From NCBI RefSeq assembly GCF_016616425.1, contig NZ_CP067101.1:1550001-1614000 (forward strand): a stretch of 64,000 bases of DNA. Direction: 5' to 3'. Shown here piece by piece: positions 43,157 through 49,177 of this stretch. Under the pieces are notes generated by a model that searched no databases, had not been told where the DNA came from, and saw nothing but the letters and a program-made list of their open reading frames with translations. The translations under genes and the position numbers were made by a program. Source of the stretch: Bradyrhizobium diazoefficiens. GTDB lineage: Bacteria > Pseudomonadota > Alphaproteobacteria > Rhizobiales > Xanthobacteraceae. Numbering within the stretch: the first letter of the stretch is position 1; each line of letters begins with the position of its first letter.

Positions 43157-43183
43157 TGTCGGCGCGAGGCATATTGGCGCGTC
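43157..43183 (+). promoter_or_regulatory. Predicted ECF42-dependent promoter P1 (YciI-sigma operon)
   Basis: TGTCGG (43157-43162), 17-bp spacer, CGTC (43180-43183), 20 nt before the YciI start. The same hexamer-17-tetramer pattern occurs before two other genes of this neighbourhood, with a near match before a third. It resembles the TGTCG(A)/CG(A/T)C-type promoter I recall for ECF42 sigma factors. It would make the sigma gene autoregulated. Confidence 0.75.
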
Positions 43184-43202
43184 TTTAGAACAGACGAGGA
43201 AA

Positions 43203-43580
43203 ATGTCGCCAATGCTTTATGCCATCCTTTGCTATCACGATGAGGACTTCGTCGGCTCCTGGAGCAAGGAGCAGGACGAGGCCGTGATGAAGAAGCTCGC
43301 GGTGGTGCAGGAGAAGCTCACCAGCCAAGGCCGGCTCGGTCCGGTGGCACGGCTGCTGCCGACGACGGCGGCGGCGACGCTGCGCAAGGAAGACCCGCCG
43401 CTGGTGCTCGACGGCCCCTATGCCGAAACCAAGGAGCAGCTGCTCGGCTTTTACATCGTGGATTGCAAGAATCTCGATGAAGCGCTTGACGTCGCCCGCG
43501 ACCTCGGTGCGGCCAATCCCGGTGGCGCCTATGAGGTGCGTCCCGTCGGCGTGTTCAGGCCCGGAGGGAAGCTGACGTGA
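43203..43580 (+). CDS. YciI/DGPF-domain protein coupled to an ECF sigma factor
   Basis: A 125-residue cytosolic protein of the DGPF (YciI-related) family: MLYAILCYHDED start, the eponymous VLDGPYAETKEQLLGFYIVD motif near residue 70, and VRPVGVF at the end. The ATG at 43203 is preferred; a second ATG three codons later is possible. Its stop overlaps the GTG start of the sigma gene. DGPF proteins are the hallmark partners of ECF42 sigma factors; their biochemical activity is not established. Confidence 0.93.
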   Translation: MSPMLYAILCYHDEDFVGSWSKEQDEAVMKKLAVVQEKLTSQGRLGPVARLLPTTAAATLRKEDPPLVLDGPYAETKEQLLGFYIVDCKNLDEALDVARDLGAANPGGAYEVRPVGVFRPGGKLT

Positions 43581-44863
43581 GCGAGGCCGATACCGCCTGG
43601 ATCGAGACCGCGCTGACCTCGGCGCGCCCGCAGGCGGTCGGTGCGCTGCTGCGCTATTTCCGCGATCTCGACACGGCCGAGGAGGCGTTCCAGAACGCCT
43701 GCCTGCGTGCACTTAAGACCTGGCCGCAGAATGGGCCGCCGCGCGATCCTGCGGCCTGGCTGATCATGGTCGGCCGCAACGTCGCGATCGACGAAGTGCG
43801 GCGCGCCCGCAAGCAGCAGCCGCTGCCGGAGGACGACCAGGCGATCTCCGATCTCGGCGACGCCGAGGGCGCGCTCGCCGAGCGGCTCGATGGTTCGCAT
43901 TATCGCGACGATATTTTGCGGCTGATGTTCATCTGCTGCCATCCGCAGCTGCCGGCAACGCAGCAGATCGCGCTGGCGCTGCGCATCGTCTGCGGTCTCA
44001 CCGTGAAGCAGATTGCACGCGCCTTCCTGGTCTCGGACGCGGCGATGGAGCAGCGTATCACCCGCGCCAAGGCGAAGGTCGCGGAGGCGGGAACGCCGTT
44101 CGAAACGCCCGGCGCGGTCGAGCGCTCGGAGCGGCTCGCCGGTGTCGCGGCGATGATCTACCTGATTTTCAACGAGGGCTATTCGGCGAGCGGCGACACC
44201 GCGGAGATCAGAAAGCCGCTCTGCGAGGAGGCGATCCGGCTGGCTCGCCTCCTGCTCAGGCTGTTTCCGAGCGAGCCGGAGATCATGGGGCTCACCGCGC
44301 TCATCTTGCTGCAGCATGCGCGCAGTGCCGCGCGCTTTGCCGCGGACGGCTCGCTGATCCTGCTGGACGACCAGGACCGCTCGCTGTGGAACGGCACCAT
44401 GATCGCGGAAGGGCTGGCGCTGATCGACAAGGCGATGCGCCACCGCCGCAGCGGGCCCTATCAGATCCAGGCGGCGATCGCCGCGCTGCATGCCCGGGCG
44501 TCGACGCCGGAGGAGACCGACTGGACGCAGATCGACCTGCTCTACGGCGCGCTCGAAGTGGTGCAGCCGTCTCCCGTGGTGACGCTCAACCGCGCAGTCG
44601 CGGTCTCCAAGGTGCGCGGGCCGCAAGCCGCGCTCGAATTGATCGAGCCCCTGGCGCCGAAACTCGCCAACTACTTCCATTTCTACGGCGTGCGCGGCGC
44701 CTTTCTGATGCAACTCGGCCGCAATGACGAGGCCCGCATCGCCTTCGACCGCGCCATCGCCCTCGCGAACACCTCAGCCGAGGCCGCCCACATCCGTATG
44801 CATCTCGATCGCCTGATCCGGGACAGCCAGCCGAAGCCGAAGGAAAGCGCGAAGGCGAAGTAG
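43577..44863 (+). CDS. ECF42-type RNA polymerase sigma factor with C-terminal helical-repeat domain
   Basis: A 428-residue protein, much longer than ordinary ECF factors. Region 2 is DLDTAEEAFQNACLRALKTW with AAWLIMVGRNVAIDEVRRAR. Region 4 is LPATQQIALALRIVCGLTVK followed by FLVSDAAMEQRITRAKAKV. Beyond residue 180 comes the DUF6596/TPR-like extension (AAMIYLIFNEGYSASGDTAE, later FLMQLGRNDEARIAFDRAIA) characteristic of ECF42. No anti-sigma gene adjoins it; regulation in this group is thought to work through the extension. It starts GTG 43577 within the YciI stop (GTGA). Likely target genes nearby share its promoter motif. Confidence 0.93.
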   Translation: MSEADTAWIETALTSARPQAVGALLRYFRDLDTAEEAFQNACLRALKTWPQNGPPRDPAAWLIMVGRNVAIDEVRRARKQQPLPEDDQAISDLGDAEGALAERLDGSHYRDDILRLMFICCHPQLPATQQIALALRIVCGLTVKQIARAFLVSDAAMEQRITRAKAKVAEAGTPFETPGAVERSERLAGVAAMIYLIFNEGYSASGDTAEIRKPLCEEAIRLARLLLRLFPSEPEIMGLTALILLQHARSAARFAADGSLILLDDQDRSLWNGTMIAEGLALIDKAMRHRRSGPYQIQAAIAALHARASTPEETDWTQIDLLYGALEVVQPSPVVTLNRAVAVSKVRGPQAALELIEPLAPKLANYFHFYGVRGAFLMQLGRNDEARIAFDRAIALANTSAEAAHIRMHLDRLIRDSQPKPKESAKAK

Positions 44864-44875
44864 TGGGGGCTGTCT

Positions 44876-44912
44876 GCACATCGTCATGCCCGGGGTGGGC
44901 ATGACGATGTGC
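44876..44912. terminator. Strong hairpin after the sigma factor gene
   Basis: A perfect 16-bp stem GCACATCGTCATGCCC / GGGCATGACGATGTGC with a 5-nt loop, starting 13 bp after the sigma gene stop. No T-run follows, so termination efficiency is uncertain; the words GTCATGCCC / GGGCATGAC also occur in genus-specific REP elements. Confidence 0.6.
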
Positions 44913-44997
44913 GGTCGGTGTCAAGGAACGTGGATGGCCCGCGACATGCCCGGCCATGACGCGCGGCGGGCAGCGTACGAAAATTTGGTTTCCGTCT

Positions 44998-45024
44998 TGT
45001 CGGCCAGGGCCTCTCCCGTTCGTC
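44998..45024 (+). promoter_or_regulatory. Predicted ECF42-dependent promoter P2 (SRPBCC-VOC operon)
   Basis: TGTCGG (44998-45003), 17-bp spacer, CGTC (45021-45024), 26 nt before the ATG at 45051. Identical element and spacing to P1 upstream of the sigma operon. Confidence 0.72.
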
Positions 45025-45050
45025 CTGAGCCCGTATCCCGGGAGCCATTC

Positions 45051-45590
45051 ATGCTGAAAGCCATCGCCATCATCGCCGTCGTGCTTGCGATCGGAATCGC
45101 GGGCGTCCTCGTTTTCGCCGTTTCCAAGCCCGACACATTTCGCGTCCAGCGCAGTCTCGCCGTGAAGGCACCGGCCGATGCGATCTACCGGCAGGTAGCC
45201 GATTTTCATCGCTGGACTGCCTGGTCGCCCTATGAGGTCCGCGATCCCGCCATGAAGCGGACATTCGGTGGAACCGCGGAAGGACGGGGCGCGACCTATG
45301 CCTGGGACGGCAACAACAATGTCGGCGCCGGCCACATGGAAATCCTCGAGGCGAGCACACCGTCGAAGATTCGCATCAAGCTCGATTTCGAGCGACCTTT
45401 CGAAGGCCATAACACTGCCGAGTTCACCTTTATGCCGCAAGGCGATGCCACATTGGTGACATGGGCGATGTCAGGGCCGGCTCCGTTCCTGTCCAAGGTC
45501 ATGCAGGTCTTCATCAACATGGACAGCATGATCGGCAAGGATTTCGAGGCCGGTCTCGCCCGCCTGAAGAAGCTCACCGAAACGCAATAG
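45051..45590 (+). CDS. SRPBCC family (polyketide cyclase/dehydrase-like) protein with N-terminal membrane anchor
   Basis: 179 residues. The hydrophobic N-terminus LKAIAIIAVVLAIGIAGVLV is a membrane anchor or uncleaved signal, then the START-like fold begins FRVQRSLAVKAPADAIYRQV and includes FHRWTAWSPYEVRDPAMKRT and YAWDGNNNVGAGHMEI. The ligand is unknown. It is preceded by the P2 promoter and followed 30 bp later by a VOC protein. SRPBCC/AHSA1 proteins are frequent in ECF42 neighbourhoods. Confidence 0.92.
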   Translation: MLKAIAIIAVVLAIGIAGVLVFAVSKPDTFRVQRSLAVKAPADAIYRQVADFHRWTAWSPYEVRDPAMKRTFGGTAEGRGATYAWDGNNNVGAGHMEILEASTPSKIRIKLDFERPFEGHNTAEFTFMPQGDATLVTWAMSGPAPFLSKVMQVFINMDSMIGKDFEAGLARLKKLTETQ

Positions 45591-45620
45591 GCGTCACTGC
45601 AAACGAAGAGGAGAGAAACG

Positions 45621-46034
45621 ATGCTCAATGCCTGTCTGTTCTATCAGGACACCTGCGAAGCCGCGTTCAACTATTACGCCAAGGTTCTCGGCGGCAAGAT
45701 CGATGCGATGATGCGCGCCTCGGATGCGCCGCCGGACATGCCCGCTGCGCCCGGTCGCGAGAAAATGATCATGCACGCGCGGATGTCGCTGCCCGACGGC
45801 AGCGTGTTGATGGCCTCCGATGCGCCGCCCGAGCAATTTCACAAGCCGCAGGGCTTCTCGATCTCGCTTACCGTCAAGGATCCCGCAGATGGCGAGCGCA
45901 AGTTCAACGCGCTCGCCGACGGCGGCACCGTCACCATGCCCTTCAGCAAGACGTTCTGGGCCAAGGGTTTTGGCATGTGCGTCGACAAGTTCGGCATTCC
46001 CTGGATGGTGAACTGCCCGGCGGAAGGAATGTGA
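45621..46034 (+). CDS. VOC family (PhnB/glyoxalase-like) protein
   Basis: A 137-residue single-unit VOC protein of the PhnB-like (3-demethylubiquinone-like) type: NACLFYQDTCEAAFNYYAKV at the start, KMIMHARMSLPDGSVLMASD in the middle, and FWAKGFGMCVDKFGIPWMVN at the end. Metal ligands are not all conserved in this subfamily, so enzymatic activity is uncertain. AGGAGAGAAACG precedes ATG 45621. It is cotranscribed with the SRPBCC gene. Confidence 0.94.
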   Translation: MLNACLFYQDTCEAAFNYYAKVLGGKIDAMMRASDAPPDMPAAPGREKMIMHARMSLPDGSVLMASDAPPEQFHKPQGFSISLTVKDPADGERKFNALADGGTVTMPFSKTFWAKGFGMCVDKFGIPWMVNCPAEGM

Positions 46035-46070
46035 CGCGCGCGATCGCTCGCATGATCTATTGAGGCGCGA

Positions 46071-46101
46071 TCCCCTCTCTCCATCCTTGCGGGAGAGGGG
46101 A
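46071..46101. terminator. Hairpin downstream of the VOC gene
   Basis: TCCCCTCTC (46071-46079) pairs perfectly with GAGAGGGGA (46093-46101) around a 13-nt loop, about 37 bp after the stop. There is no T-run; it may be a REP-derived hairpin acting as transcript end. Confidence 0.5.
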
Positions 46102-46441
46102 CGCATGGATTCATCATCATGCTCGAACCGGGCGTGAGCTCGCGCAGCGGATCGATCCCGTGCCGTCTTCGCCTTGCCGCGGCGGCTGGTGCGCAACGAG
46201 CAGGCTCCGCGTGGGAGACTCGCATCGCCTCGGTCAAATGGAACTCAAGGCAAACAACTGGCATGGTGATGAACTCACGCATCACTTTTCGGGAGCAGCG
46301 AGGCCGCCTCATGAAACCATGCGGACTGCATCGCACAACAATTGGCGCATTATTGGGCTGTGATCTGTACGCCAGAATCGCTATTTGTAATTCATAAAAT
46401 CTACAAACCGGGGTGGACGTCACTTGCAAGGGGAGCGACCG
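46102..46441. other. Intergenic stretch without recognised gene
   Basis: This 340-bp stretch is less G+C-rich than the neighbours toward its right end (ATTCATAAAATCTACAAACC near 46390-46408). Open frames are short and show no family features. It presumably contains the promoter of the small peptide gene that follows. Confidence 0.4.
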
Positions 46442-46534
46442 ATGGCGGCGGCGCTACAGATCAATTTTGCTCTTTGGGGGATGCTCATCTGCGCCAGCAT
46501 GAAACTGGTGCCGGTGATTCAGACTCTTTATTGA
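46442..46534 (+). CDS. Candidate 30-residue membrane micro-protein
   Basis: An ATG with a strong Shine-Dalgarno (AAGGGGAG, about seven bases upstream) opens a 30-codon frame: MAAALQINFALWGMLICASM then KLVPVIQTLY and a stop. The peptide is a single hydrophobic helix with aromatic and Met residues and one Lys, typical of membrane-inserted small proteins. It is below usual annotation limits. I have a vague recollection of similar LQ-NFALWGM peptides in Bradyrhizobium, which I cannot verify here. No function is assigned. Confidence 0.55.
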   Translation: MAAALQINFALWGMLICASMKLVPVIQTLY

Positions 46535-46693
46535 AGCCGGCCAAAGCGTGACGGCGCAGAGCCCCGGTGCGCACACGGCGTGCGACCAGAGGAAACCTGC
46601 CGTATGGCCTCGGATCAGCTACATCGAACGCCTCGGATGTGATGCGGTTCACGGAACTCGTTCACGTCACACACGTGGCGACTGCCAAATTCG

Positions 46694-47131
46694 TCAGCGG
46701 CAGCGCGGATAGATCGCGGCGAGATCACGGCCCTTGAGCAAGAGCAACCGCGAGGTGAGGCCGCCACGGCGGCTGATCCAGTTGCGAACCGGGCCGGGAT
46801 AGGCGGCAAGCACCGCGACCGACGCTTCCGGCTCGGCATAAAAGCGCCCGCGCCGGTCCACCGAACGTGCCGCATGGAAGCCGAGCACCGCGCGCTTGGT
46901 GACGCAGATGCGCTCGCCCGGCACGATGCTCAGGACCAGCGTGCAGGCAGACAGGCAGGGACCGTCGATCACCACGCGCTCGCCGCTCTCGCGCACCTTC
47001 TCGAACAAATCGAGGAACGGCCCGACCTGTCCGCCCGGAGACTGGATGATGCGGATTTCGGCGGCAGCGGGCGCGATGGCGAGCAGCGCGAATCCAAGCA
47101 TCAGGGCTGTGACGAAAGCGGCGCGTCGCAT
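46694..47131 (-). CDS. Secreted protein with ClpP-like fold features (COG3904-like)
   Basis: 145 residues from ATG 47131 with TGGAG upstream. The N-terminal signal peptide MRRAAFVTALMLGFALLAIA is cleaved near AAA-EI. The mature part IRIIQSPGGQVGPFLDLFEK, VVIDGPCLSACTLVLSIVPG and AVLGFHAARSVDRRG resembles the periplasmic ClpP/crotonase-like COG3904 proteins, where the serine of xSAC sits at the nucleophile position and His follows in FHAA. Whether it is a protease is unknown. It is a single gene on the minus strand, about 160 bp from the micro-protein. Confidence 0.8.
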   Translation of the reverse strand: MRRAAFVTALMLGFALLAIAPAAAEIRIIQSPGGQVGPFLDLFEKVRESGERVVIDGPCLSACTLVLSIVPGERICVTKRAVLGFHAARSVDRRGRFYAEPEASVAVLAAYPGPVRNWISRRGGLTSRLLLLKGRDLAAIYPRCR

Positions 47132-47260
47132 GGAGCACTCCACAAGCTCGGCTTGGCAGGATCAGCAAAGCGTAGCGTGCCCACCATTGTCACCACAAAT
47201 TCTGGAGAAGTGGTGGGCACGGCGCTTGCGCGCCTTTGTCAGCCCTACAATTTTTCGTGC

Positions 47261-48049
47261 CTACCCGTTGCGGCGCTGACCGCGCAGCGTCGGCAGGCCG
47301 ATACCTGCCGCATCGAAACCGCCATCGACGGCCAAAATTTGCCCGGTGATGTAGCTCGCGCTTGCCGAGCACAGGAAATAGATCGCTTCGGCGAGTTCCT
47401 CCTCCAGACCGTAGCGGTTGAGCGGAATGGCGTCGTGATAGTCGGCGCGGATCTCCTTGGTGTGCACCTGCTTCGCCATCGCGGTGTCGACCGGTCCCGG
47501 CGCGACCGCGTTGACGCGGATGTTGAAGGAGGCGAGCTCGACCGCAAGCTGCTTGGTGAGGTGCGCGAGCCCGGCCTTGCTGGTGCCGTAGGCCGAGCGC
47601 AGCGTCGAGGCGCGCACCGCCGAGATCGAGGTGACGTTGACGATGGCGCCGCCGTTGCCGTCGCGCATCAAGGGCACCGCCGCCTTGGCGCAGAGGAAGG
47701 GGCCGGTGAGGTTGACGTCGAGGACGCGGCGCCAATCGGTCTCGGACGTCTCCATCAGCGGCGCGAACACTGCGATGCCGGCATTGTTGATAAGCGCATC
47801 GAGCCGGCCGAACCGTCGCTCGAGCGTCGTCATCGCGGCCGCGACCGCGGCTGCGTCCGAGACGTCGCAGGTCAGCGCCAGCGTCGCCCCGCTTTGGTCG
47901 ATTTCGGCGACTGCCCGGCCGAGCAACTCGCCCTCGATGTCGAGCAGCGCCACGCGCCAGCCCTCGGCCAGGAACTTCTTCGCGGTTGCAAGCCCGATGC
48001 CGCGCGCGGCTCCGGTGACGAGGGCGACTTTTTGTGGGGCTTGCGGCAT
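47261..48049 (-). CDS. Short-chain dehydrogenase/reductase
   Basis: 262 residues from ATG 48049 (MPQAPQKVALVTGAARGIGL); the longer frame upstream is rejected. It has the TGAARGIG cofactor motif, LDALINNAGIAVF, catalytic Ser in VNVTSISAV, YGTSKAGLAHLTKQ with Tyr/Lys, and a C-terminal SYITGQILAVDGGFDA. It is a classical SDR of unknown substrate. It is divergent from the YciI gene at 48349 and tail to tail with nothing; the region between holds the P3 promoter for the opposite strand. Confidence 0.93.
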   Translation of the reverse strand: MPQAPQKVALVTGAARGIGLATAKKFLAEGWRVALLDIEGELLGRAVAEIDQSGATLALTCDVSDAAAVAAAMTTLERRFGRLDALINNAGIAVFAPLMETSETDWRRVLDVNLTGPFLCAKAAVPLMRDGNGGAIVNVTSISAVRASTLRSAYGTSKAGLAHLTKQLAVELASFNIRVNAVAPGPVDTAMAKQVHTKEIRADYHDAIPLNRYGLEEELAEAIYFLCSASASYITGQILAVDGGFDAAGIGLPTLRGQRRNG

Positions 48050-48217
48050 TGGCTGATCTGTCCTGCGTCCGGGAAGGGGCGGCGCGCGAGCGCCGGTGCT
48101 CCTTTTACTTCGCTTTCGTTCCGGCAAGGAAGGCCTCAGGCCGACCCTATAATCCCGATCCGGCCCGAAGGCGCCTGCCGCAATCGCACCGCGGCCTCCA
48201 AATATTTTCTGCGCCGC

Positions 48218-48244
48218 TGTCGGGGCGGCGAGCGGTCGTTCGTC
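48218..48244 (+). promoter_or_regulatory. Predicted ECF42-dependent promoter P3 (YciI gene 2)
   Basis: TGTCGG (48218-48223), 17-bp spacer, CGTC (48241-48244). The leader to ATG 48349 is about 105 nt, longer than at P1 and P2. A palindromic REP-like element (ATTCCGGGCTCGCG ... CGCGCCTTGGAATGA, about 48289-48324) lies in the leader and may account for the difference. Confidence 0.68.
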
Positions 48245-48348
48245 TTATAGGGGAATGCGGGCCGGCTGATCCCGTCCGCAGGTGAATGGATTCCGGGCTC
48301 GCGGCTTCGTCGCGCCTTGGAATGACAGTGAGAAACAAGGAACCTTCC

Positions 48349-48753
48349 ATGCGATTCATGATGCTCATGATTCCGCTCGGCTATGAGAGCGCGCCGCCGG
48401 ACGTGCAACTCGATCCCGAGCGCGTTGCCGCGATGATGCGCTACAACGAGGCGCTGAAGGATGCCGGCGTGCTGATCACGCTCGACGGCCTGCATCCGCC
48501 CTCGATGGGCGCGCGCATCTCGTTTGCGACCGGCGAACCTGTCGTGACCGACGGCCCTTTCGCCGAAGCCAAGGAGGTCCTGGGCGGCTACTGGATGATC
48601 GAGGTCGCCTCGCGCGCCGAGGCGATCGCCTGGGCGAAGAAGTGTCCGGCTTCGGCCAACGAGATCATCGAGATCCGGCAGGTACAGGAGATGAGCGACT
48701 TTCCGCCCGACGTGCAGCAGGCCGCGGCCGGTTTTGGCGACCTGAAGAAGTAG
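48349..48753 (+). CDS. YciI/DGPF-domain protein, second copy
   Basis: 134 residues from ATG 48349 (MRFMMLMIPLGYESAPPDVQ). The DGPF motif VVTDGPFAEAKEVLGGYWMI and the segment KKCPASANEIIEIRQVQEM mark the PhnB/YciI-like group typically encoded beside ECF42 sigma factors. An upstream ATG at 48286 lies inside the repeat and is rejected. Its promoter motif P3 matches that of the sigma operon 5 kb upstream, so it is a probable target. Confidence 0.93.
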   Translation: MRFMMLMIPLGYESAPPDVQLDPERVAAMMRYNEALKDAGVLITLDGLHPPSMGARISFATGEPVVTDGPFAEAKEVLGGYWMIEVASRAEAIAWAKKCPASANEIIEIRQVQEMSDFPPDVQQAAAGFGDLKK

Positions 48754-48760
48754 CTACAGC

Positions 48761-48787
48761 CGTCGCGAGAAAATCGCGTCTGTCGTC
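48761..48787 (+). promoter_or_regulatory. Possible ECF42-dependent promoter P4 (YciI gene 3)
   Basis: CGTCGC (48761-48766, four of six matching TGTCGG), a 17-bp spacer and CGTC (48784-48787), 24 nt before ATG 48812. Weaker than P1-P3 but with the same spacing and leader length. Confidence 0.5.
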
Positions 48788-48811
48788 AATCGATCAGCAA
48801 GGAGAGAACCG

Positions 48812-49177
48812 ATGAGCACCGAACACAAATTCCTCGCCGTCTATCTCGGCAGCATGACCGGCCCGAAGATGGCGGCCTGGCGCGCGCTTCCCGAGGCCGA
48901 ACGGAAGGCAAAGGAGCGGGAGGGCATGGCCGCCTGGCACGGCTGGGTCGAGAGGCACAAGGCCGTGATCGTCGAGATGGGCGGCCCGCTCGGCAAGACC
49001 CGCCGGATCGACGCGAGCGGTATCAGCGAGATCAGCAATGCGTTGACCGGCTTCACGGTGGTGCGGGCTGCCTCGCAGGAGGAAGCTGCCAAGCTGTTCG
49101 AGAACCATCCGCATTTTTCGATCTTTCCGGGCGAGGCGATCGAAGTCATGCCCGTGCTGCCCATTCCGCAGATGTAG
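48812..49177 (+). CDS. YciI-related protein, third member
   Basis: 121 residues starting MSTEHKFLAVYLGSMTGPKM, with AAWHGWVERHKAVIVEMGGP, the position of DGPF taken by a GGPLGKT segment, and a C-terminal FSIFPGEAIEVMPVLPIP. This is a divergent YCII-domain protein lacking the exact DGPF motif. GGAGAGAACC precedes ATG 48812. It lies 58 bp after the second YciI gene, and may use its own promoter P4 or read-through. Confidence 0.88.
   Translation: MSTEHKFLAVYLGSMTGPKMAAWRALPEAERKAKEREGMAAWHGWVERHKAVIVEMGGPLGKTRRIDASGISEISNALTGFTVVRAASQEEAAKLFENHPHFSIFPGEAIEVMPVLPIPQM

Follow-up and report, generated by a model that had tools for sequence, protein, structure and literature searches.

Candidate TGTCGG-N17-CGTC promoters and the putative regulon of an ECF42 sigma factor in Bradyrhizobium diazoefficiens

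An ECF42-type sigma factor is encoded at position 43577 of a stretch of 64,000 nucleotides (nt) of the Bradyrhizobium diazoefficiens genome (NCBI RefSeq assembly GCF_016616425.1, contig NZ_CP067101.1, positions 1,550,001 to 1,614,000 of the forward strand), hereafter called the window. Judged from the sequence, this factor very probably reads the promoter TGTCGG-N17-CGTC and would drive three transcription units of the window, perhaps with its own operon among them, as well as distant genes. A pattern search of the window returned three exact copies of the motif, as an earlier note on this DNA had claimed, and all are on the + strand:

43157..43183, + strand, putative ECF42-type promoter of the YciI-ECF42 operon, exact TGTCGG-N17-CGTC
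44998..45024, + strand, putative ECF42-type promoter of the SRPBCC-VOC operon, exact motif
48218..48244, + strand, putative ECF42-type promoter of YciI-2, exact motif

When the window was shuffled 100 times with its dinucleotides preserved, no shuffle held three or more matches (mean 0.30).

Conservation of the sites and their link to the sigma factor

The 80 loci nearest by similarity of the sigma gene, 79 titled Bradyrhizobium and one titled Frankia sp. RB7, were searched for the motif within 140 nt upstream of each gene. A locus entered the denominator when the gene could be traced from its first residues with at least 75% identity and had at least 120 nt upstream. The exact motif stood before YciI-ECF42 in 80/80 of these named loci, before SRPBCC-VOC in 68/74 (one mismatch in 5 more) and before YciI-2 in 52/73 (one mismatch in 8 more). 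At five control positions it was absent even when one mismatch was allowed (0/79, 0/75, 0/76, 0/69 and 0/79), the 0/75 being the position directly before the VOC gene. The record titled Frankia sp. RB7 (L359) carries a Bradyrhizobium-like ECF42 locus with 94% identity and is perhaps mislabelled.

A second sample consisted of 21 genomes of the genus, searched within 220 nt upstream. Exact copies preceded YciI-1 in 18/21, the remaining three having a copy with one mismatch in the same place; the counts were 8/20 for SRPBCC (one mismatch in 2 more) and 8/19 for YciI-2 (one mismatch in 1 more). No exact match was found before the control genes (ECF42 0/21, VOC 0/20, SDR 0/19, TetR 0/19, 2-hydroxyacid dehydrogenase 0/21), and a single SDR upstream region matched with one mismatch. 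Within the 21 ECF42 neighbourhoods, 262 kb in all, 63 exact motifs were located on the strand of the ECF42 gene and 0 on the opposite strand. The earlier note had proposed conservation in related genomes as a check, and the motif proved to be conserved before three units and absent at control positions. Four genomes without the motif before SRPBCC (G152, G153, G164 and G168) have it before a DoxX-type gene instead, which may head the same operon there.

The motif was also related to the presence of the factor across the order, where 65/150 genomes have an ECF42 gene. The extended form TGTCGG-N15-TTCGTC (the TTCGTC form) gave 92 matches in the 65 ECF42 genomes (reversed pattern 28) and 25 in the 85 others (reversed 25), or 0.297 per Mb with ECF42 and 0.082 without (p 2.8e-10; with the own genus removed, p 6.7e-7). 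ECF42 promoters take the form TGTCG(A) / CG(A/T)C, for which a table of promoters from Sinorhizobium meliloti was the sole check.

The S. meliloti ECF42 factor RpoE10 has TGTCGG-N17-CGTC before SMc01151(YCII)-rpoE10, SMc01149-SMc01148, which encode a hydrophobic-ligand domain and a glyoxalase-like protein, and SMb20475-SMb20474; at the YCII operon the motif overlaps the putative start. Six genes rose when RpoE10 was overexpressed, and two motif-bearing operons were raised (PMC6180224). Like this one, the Bradyrhizobium system has a YCII gene ahead of the sigma gene, and it shares the motif, its spacing and the kinds of target; at its core it is thus a further case of a circuit already known (PMC6180224). 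It differs in that the motif stands before more units, genes for GST, MFS, AHSA1 and Ku proteins among them, in having another ECF42 factor with a different promoter code, and in being described from sequence. The extension of the regulon to SRPBCC and VOC proteins, which the earlier note had suggested, was supported, but it is not new, since RpoE10 raised an operon of the hydrophobic-ligand and glyoxalase-like type (PMC6180224).

Conservation, strand bias, the co-occurrence of the motif with an ECF42 gene and the published RpoE10 promoters give good support to the view that the factor encoded at 43577 uses the three exact sites as promoters. In the proposed mechanism the active factor would start transcription at TGTCGG-N17-CGTC, mostly in its TTCGTC form, RNA polymerase carrying this sigma factor using these sites. 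The units so transcribed in the window would be SRPBCC-VOC, YciI-2 with YciI-3 and perhaps YciI-ECF42, and those across the genome would include GST, VOC, AHSA1, YciI and MFS genes. The C-terminal extension of the factor may hold its sigma activity, YciI being a possible partner, and the products may handle reactive or toxic small molecules.

Genome-wide sites and candidate targets

The bare motif occurs 22 times exactly in the 7.14 Mb genome and the reversed pattern 18 times. Of the genome-wide comparison that the earlier note had proposed, the density of the bare motif was therefore rejected as evidence, being near chance, whereas the TTCGTC form gave 8 matches and its reversal 0. Eleven of the 22 exact copies stand 26-104 nt ahead of a start codon and in the correct direction. 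Because further sites are spread across the genome, the description of the regulon as local in the earlier note did not hold. The genes preceded by the motif outside the window are:

genome 1901775, GST gene
genome 2311236, VOC gene
genome 3205179, AHSA1-like gene, 63 nt
genome 3553423, MFS gene
genome 4702431, GST gene
genome 4807353, YciI gene
genome C1:838889 (L002) and 4889807 (L018), Ku genes

Before CGTC, most targets read TGTCGG-N15-TTCGTC, while the promoter of the sigma operon itself has different letters there. The TTCGTC form was found 135 times in the 21 genus genomes, compared with 9 times for its reversal, and 116 of the 135 matches precede genes of recurring or recognisable families, whose names rest on Pfam searches of representatives. 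These targets were Ku (19), YCII (18, in two of which the script read the wrong frame), GST (13 and 6), MFS (12), SRPBCC (8), AHSA1 (8), an 85-residue protein without a Pfam family (7), VOC (5), 3-dmu-type (5), DoxX (4), SnoaL (3), DUF2277 (2) and DUF1428 (2), with single VOC, SnoaL, Beta-lactamase-family and DUF899 genes. Outside the genus there were 68 matches in ECF42-bearing genomes; about 21 of the 41 that were examined (40 regions) precede the same kinds of gene, as judged by eye and not by a Pfam scan.

Chance matches, made more frequent by the codon bias that comes with a high GC content, are a highly improbable explanation of the sites. The similar counts of the bare pattern and its reversal are what such an explanation predicts, and about half of the 22 copies lie inside genes or far from starts. 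Against it stand the exact conservation at fixed distances, with 0 at the controls, and the strand bias of 63 to 0. When the gap was varied from 10 to 20 bases, the pattern gave 1119 matches in 21 genomes; in a hand count among the matches listed, the gap of 15 had 18 matches, and the gaps of 12 and 18, in frame with it, had 4 and 2.

Several points weigh against control of these genes by the factor at 43577. Among the genus genomes, 10/20 lack the motif before SRPBCC and 10/19 before YciI-2. In this genome the bare motif shows no enrichment relative to its reversal, which is itself a weak control because codon frame favours some spacings. The contrast between ECF42-bearing genomes and the others did not control for GC content. 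No plausible target was found for 19 of the 135 genus matches, and a further 7 belong to the doubtful 85-residue group. Most members of this group have a leader of about 149 nt, and the site found here falls within an opposite frame. Overexpressed RpoE10 left its own YCII operon unraised despite the motif (PMC6180224). In the literature searched, no transcription data for a Bradyrhizobium ECF42 were found.

Paralogous ECF42 factors and the Ku promoters

A second ECF42 factor, 46% identical to the one at 43577 and with its own YciI, is encoded at genome C1:1947940-1949175. Its YciI-ECF42 operon, within the region C1:1945500-1953500 (L029), has the promoter TGTCGT-N17-CGAC at 1947507, and this form is kept in 21/21 loci of the clade of the second paralog. 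A third ECF42 type in some relatives has TGTCGA-N17-CGTC. A tree was built from 81 ECF42 loci minus L208 and L276 (incomplete), with three duplicates merged, which left 76 proteins; L284 was kept, although its very long branch suggests that the gene may be broken. A promoter label was counted only at 400-640 nt upstream, so that 14/76 rows are without one. In favour of the proposed mechanism, promoter letters follow the sigma clade: the four promoter types require 3 changes among the 62 labelled rows. However, most of the tree comes from a single genus and the small number of code changes partly reflects common descent, a further point against the reading.

Among 12 genus genomes, the code of the first factor (code A) was counted 72 times and that of the second (code B) 32 times, 12 of these being the own operon of the paralog, and the swapped combinations 13 and 7 times. 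The odds ratio was 25 (124 rows), many copies being orthologues and hence not independent. The second code is also present at genome C1:4418320 (L406), as TGTCGTTTTTATCGACACTTATTCGAC, nearly unchanged in several genus genomes. Neither this site nor the second-code site at 6414680 has a clear target close behind it, and at C1:4418320 a 172-residue frame points away from the site.

These counts bear on whether the TGTCGG-N17-CGTC sites serve a different sigma factor, such as the second ECF42 paralog, one of ECF41 type or EcfG. The genome does encode that second paralog together with a YciI protein, ECF factors of the same group are held likely to activate each other's promoters (PMC10880074), the S. 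meliloti ECF41 promoter shares CGTC and a 17-base spacer (Table 1 of PMC6180224), and the copies before Ku genes overlap a GGAAC element. We nevertheless consider this explanation unlikely. The operon of the second paralog has its own code throughout its clade, codes A and B far outnumber the swapped combinations, the ECF41 promoter of S. meliloti has TGTCAC at -35 (PMC6180224), and 0/116 genus matches outside Ku begin TGTCGGAAC.

For the Ku sites only, the possibility that the promoters belong to EcfG, their likeness to the ECF42 motif being a by-product, is evenly balanced with its opposite. Ku upstream regions were drawn by gene family and not by motif; 30 loci were examined and 28 gave an upstream stretch, with the exact motif in 19/28, one mismatch in 1 and no motif in 8. 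In all 20 motif-bearing upstream regions GGAAC lies across the -35 element, as in the EcfG general stress promoters of Sphingomonas melonis, where a Ku gene is among the listed EcfG targets (PMC6599016). Moreover, none of the 41 examined matches outside the genus was seen before a Ku gene. On the other hand, unlike in EcfG promoters, GGAAC here sits inside a full ECF42-type motif, and both TGTC before GGAAC and a correctly spaced CGTC are kept, neither of which is needed by the S. melonis EcfG motif GGAAC-N17-20-GTT; the -10 side reads CTT and not GTT (PMC6599016). In addition, five non-genus matches (L285, L291, L295, L302 and L305) also begin TGTCGGAAC, which argues against a Ku-specific EcfG element, and these TGTCGGAAC matches precede DUF899-like, YCII-like and VOC-like genes.

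We tentatively propose, and hold it to have less than an even chance, that Bradyrhizobium has two ECF42 factors (three in some relatives) separated by two-place promoter codes, the first of which would also switch on Ku through promoters in which ECF42 and EcfG elements are overlaid. In the literature searched, no ECF42 link to Ku, GST or MFS genes was found, although the S. venezuelae study lay outside the search and may add to this; neither were split promoter codes among ECF42 paralogs, nor a Ku promoter overlapping an EcfG-like element. Term searches of PMC3420878 and PMC4842269 yielded no statement on ECF42 targets, and those of PMC3616915 yielded no match. Split codes within one group are worth testing because cross-activation within a group is held likely (PMC10880074). 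ECF42 factors are widespread and little is known of their signals and regulons; the conserved target list, the exact promoter letters and the split-code paralogs permit cheap, direct tests of ECF42 control. Paralog insulation and DNA end joining under a second stress sigma factor are testable as well.

Genes, leaders and the third YciI-like gene of the window

The remaining features of the window locus were as follows:

43212..43580, + strand, YciI-1, YCII-related (Pfam YCII 74.3 bits), start possibly ATG 43203
43577..44863, + strand, ECF42-type sigma factor extended at its C-terminus by DUF6596 (Pfam Sigma70_r2, Sigma70_r4_2, DUF6596)
45051..45590, + strand, SRPBCC (Polyketide_cyc2/AHSA1) protein (Pfam)
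45621..46034, + strand, VOC/glyoxalase-type protein, second gene of the SRPBCC-VOC operon (Pfam 3-dmu-9_3-mt, Glyoxalase)
48245..48348, + strand, YciI-2 leader with an inverted repeat near 48288-48320 (from the sequence), length differing among relatives
48349..48753, + strand, YciI-2, YCII-related (Pfam YCII 81.2 bits)
48754..48811, + strand, stretch separating YciI-2 from YciI-3, containing a short stem-loop that overlaps the near copy at 48761-48787
48812..49177, + strand, YciI-like protein 3 (Pfam YCII 20.2 bits, below the cut-off of 24)

Pfam agreed with the earlier naming of YciI-1, the sigma factor, SRPBCC, VOC and YciI-2, and left the third YciI-like gene below the cut-off. In the sigma factor, Sigma70_r2 was found at residues 17-79 and Sigma70_r4_2 at 116-167, and no further sigma model was matched in Pfam. 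Its C-terminal extension of about 240 residues matched DUF6596 with 119 bits and scored just below the cut-offs for TPR_14 (23.2, cut-off 23.5) and TPR_2 (21.5, cut-off 27). ECF42 factors have a TPR-rich C-terminal extension of about 200 residues, and Streptomyces venezuelae ECF42 and Pseudomonas putida ECF-10 share with the present factor a C-terminal extension and a neighbouring gene with a YCII domain (PMC8999054). The YciI-1 gene overlaps the start of the sigma gene by 4 bases, and a similarity search placed a YCII gene upstream of the sigma gene in 21/21 genus neighbourhoods. All four YCII genes above the cut-off in the genome carry an ECF42-type promoter, three with code A and one with the code of the second paralog. 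Features expected of ECF42 factors further include an extension that is required for activity and the lack of an anti-sigma gene in the vicinity. No anti-sigma family was detected among ten neighbouring genes scanned with Pfam, a scan that did not cover membrane spans, and one of these genes (46694-47131) matched nothing.

The earlier note had given leader lengths of 19-26 nt for all but the 48218 site. The value of 26 nt was confirmed for the 44998 site, whereas the leader of the 43157 site is 19 nt to the in-frame ATG 43203 or 28 nt to ATG 43212; the position matching 43203 in relatives has ATG, GTG or no start codon. The spacer of the 43157 promoter contains GGCATAnT, kept in 19/21 genus genomes and, outside the genus, in 4/10 labelled loci whose sigma factor belongs to that clade; in a spacer consensus of 36 distinct sites, the other targets lacked it. 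As a guess, a basal promoter may be nested inside the ECF42 promoter of the sigma operon. A conserved AT-rich stretch also lies ahead of the -35 element of this promoter (43157-43183).

The leader of the 48218 site measures 104 nt if YciI-2 starts at 48349 and 41 nt if it starts at the in-frame ATG 48286, and the palindromic repeat described in it earlier is present as the inverted repeat listed above. The length of this leader varies widely among relatives. Ten of 55 motif-bearing leaders were folded; they differ from each other, and several form strong hairpins. The idea that the leader contains an abundant repeat was unsupported in the window, where its core occurs once, the whole genome not having been searched.

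The near copy at 48761-48787 has the letters that the earlier note gave, but its role as a fourth promoter was rejected: with up to one mismatch the motif preceded the third YciI-like gene in 0/47 named loci, the exact motif did so in 0/16 genus genomes, and the copy overlaps the stem-loop between two genes. In 46 named loci this gene follows YciI-2 within 200 nt, with spacers of 24-81 nt including the stop codon among the matches listed. YciI-3 thus probably belongs to the regulon by co-transcription with YciI-2 from the YciI-2 promoter. Many of the spacers, not all, fold into a stem, the sequence of which differs. Outside the genus, a YciI-3-like gene (L304) has its own motif.

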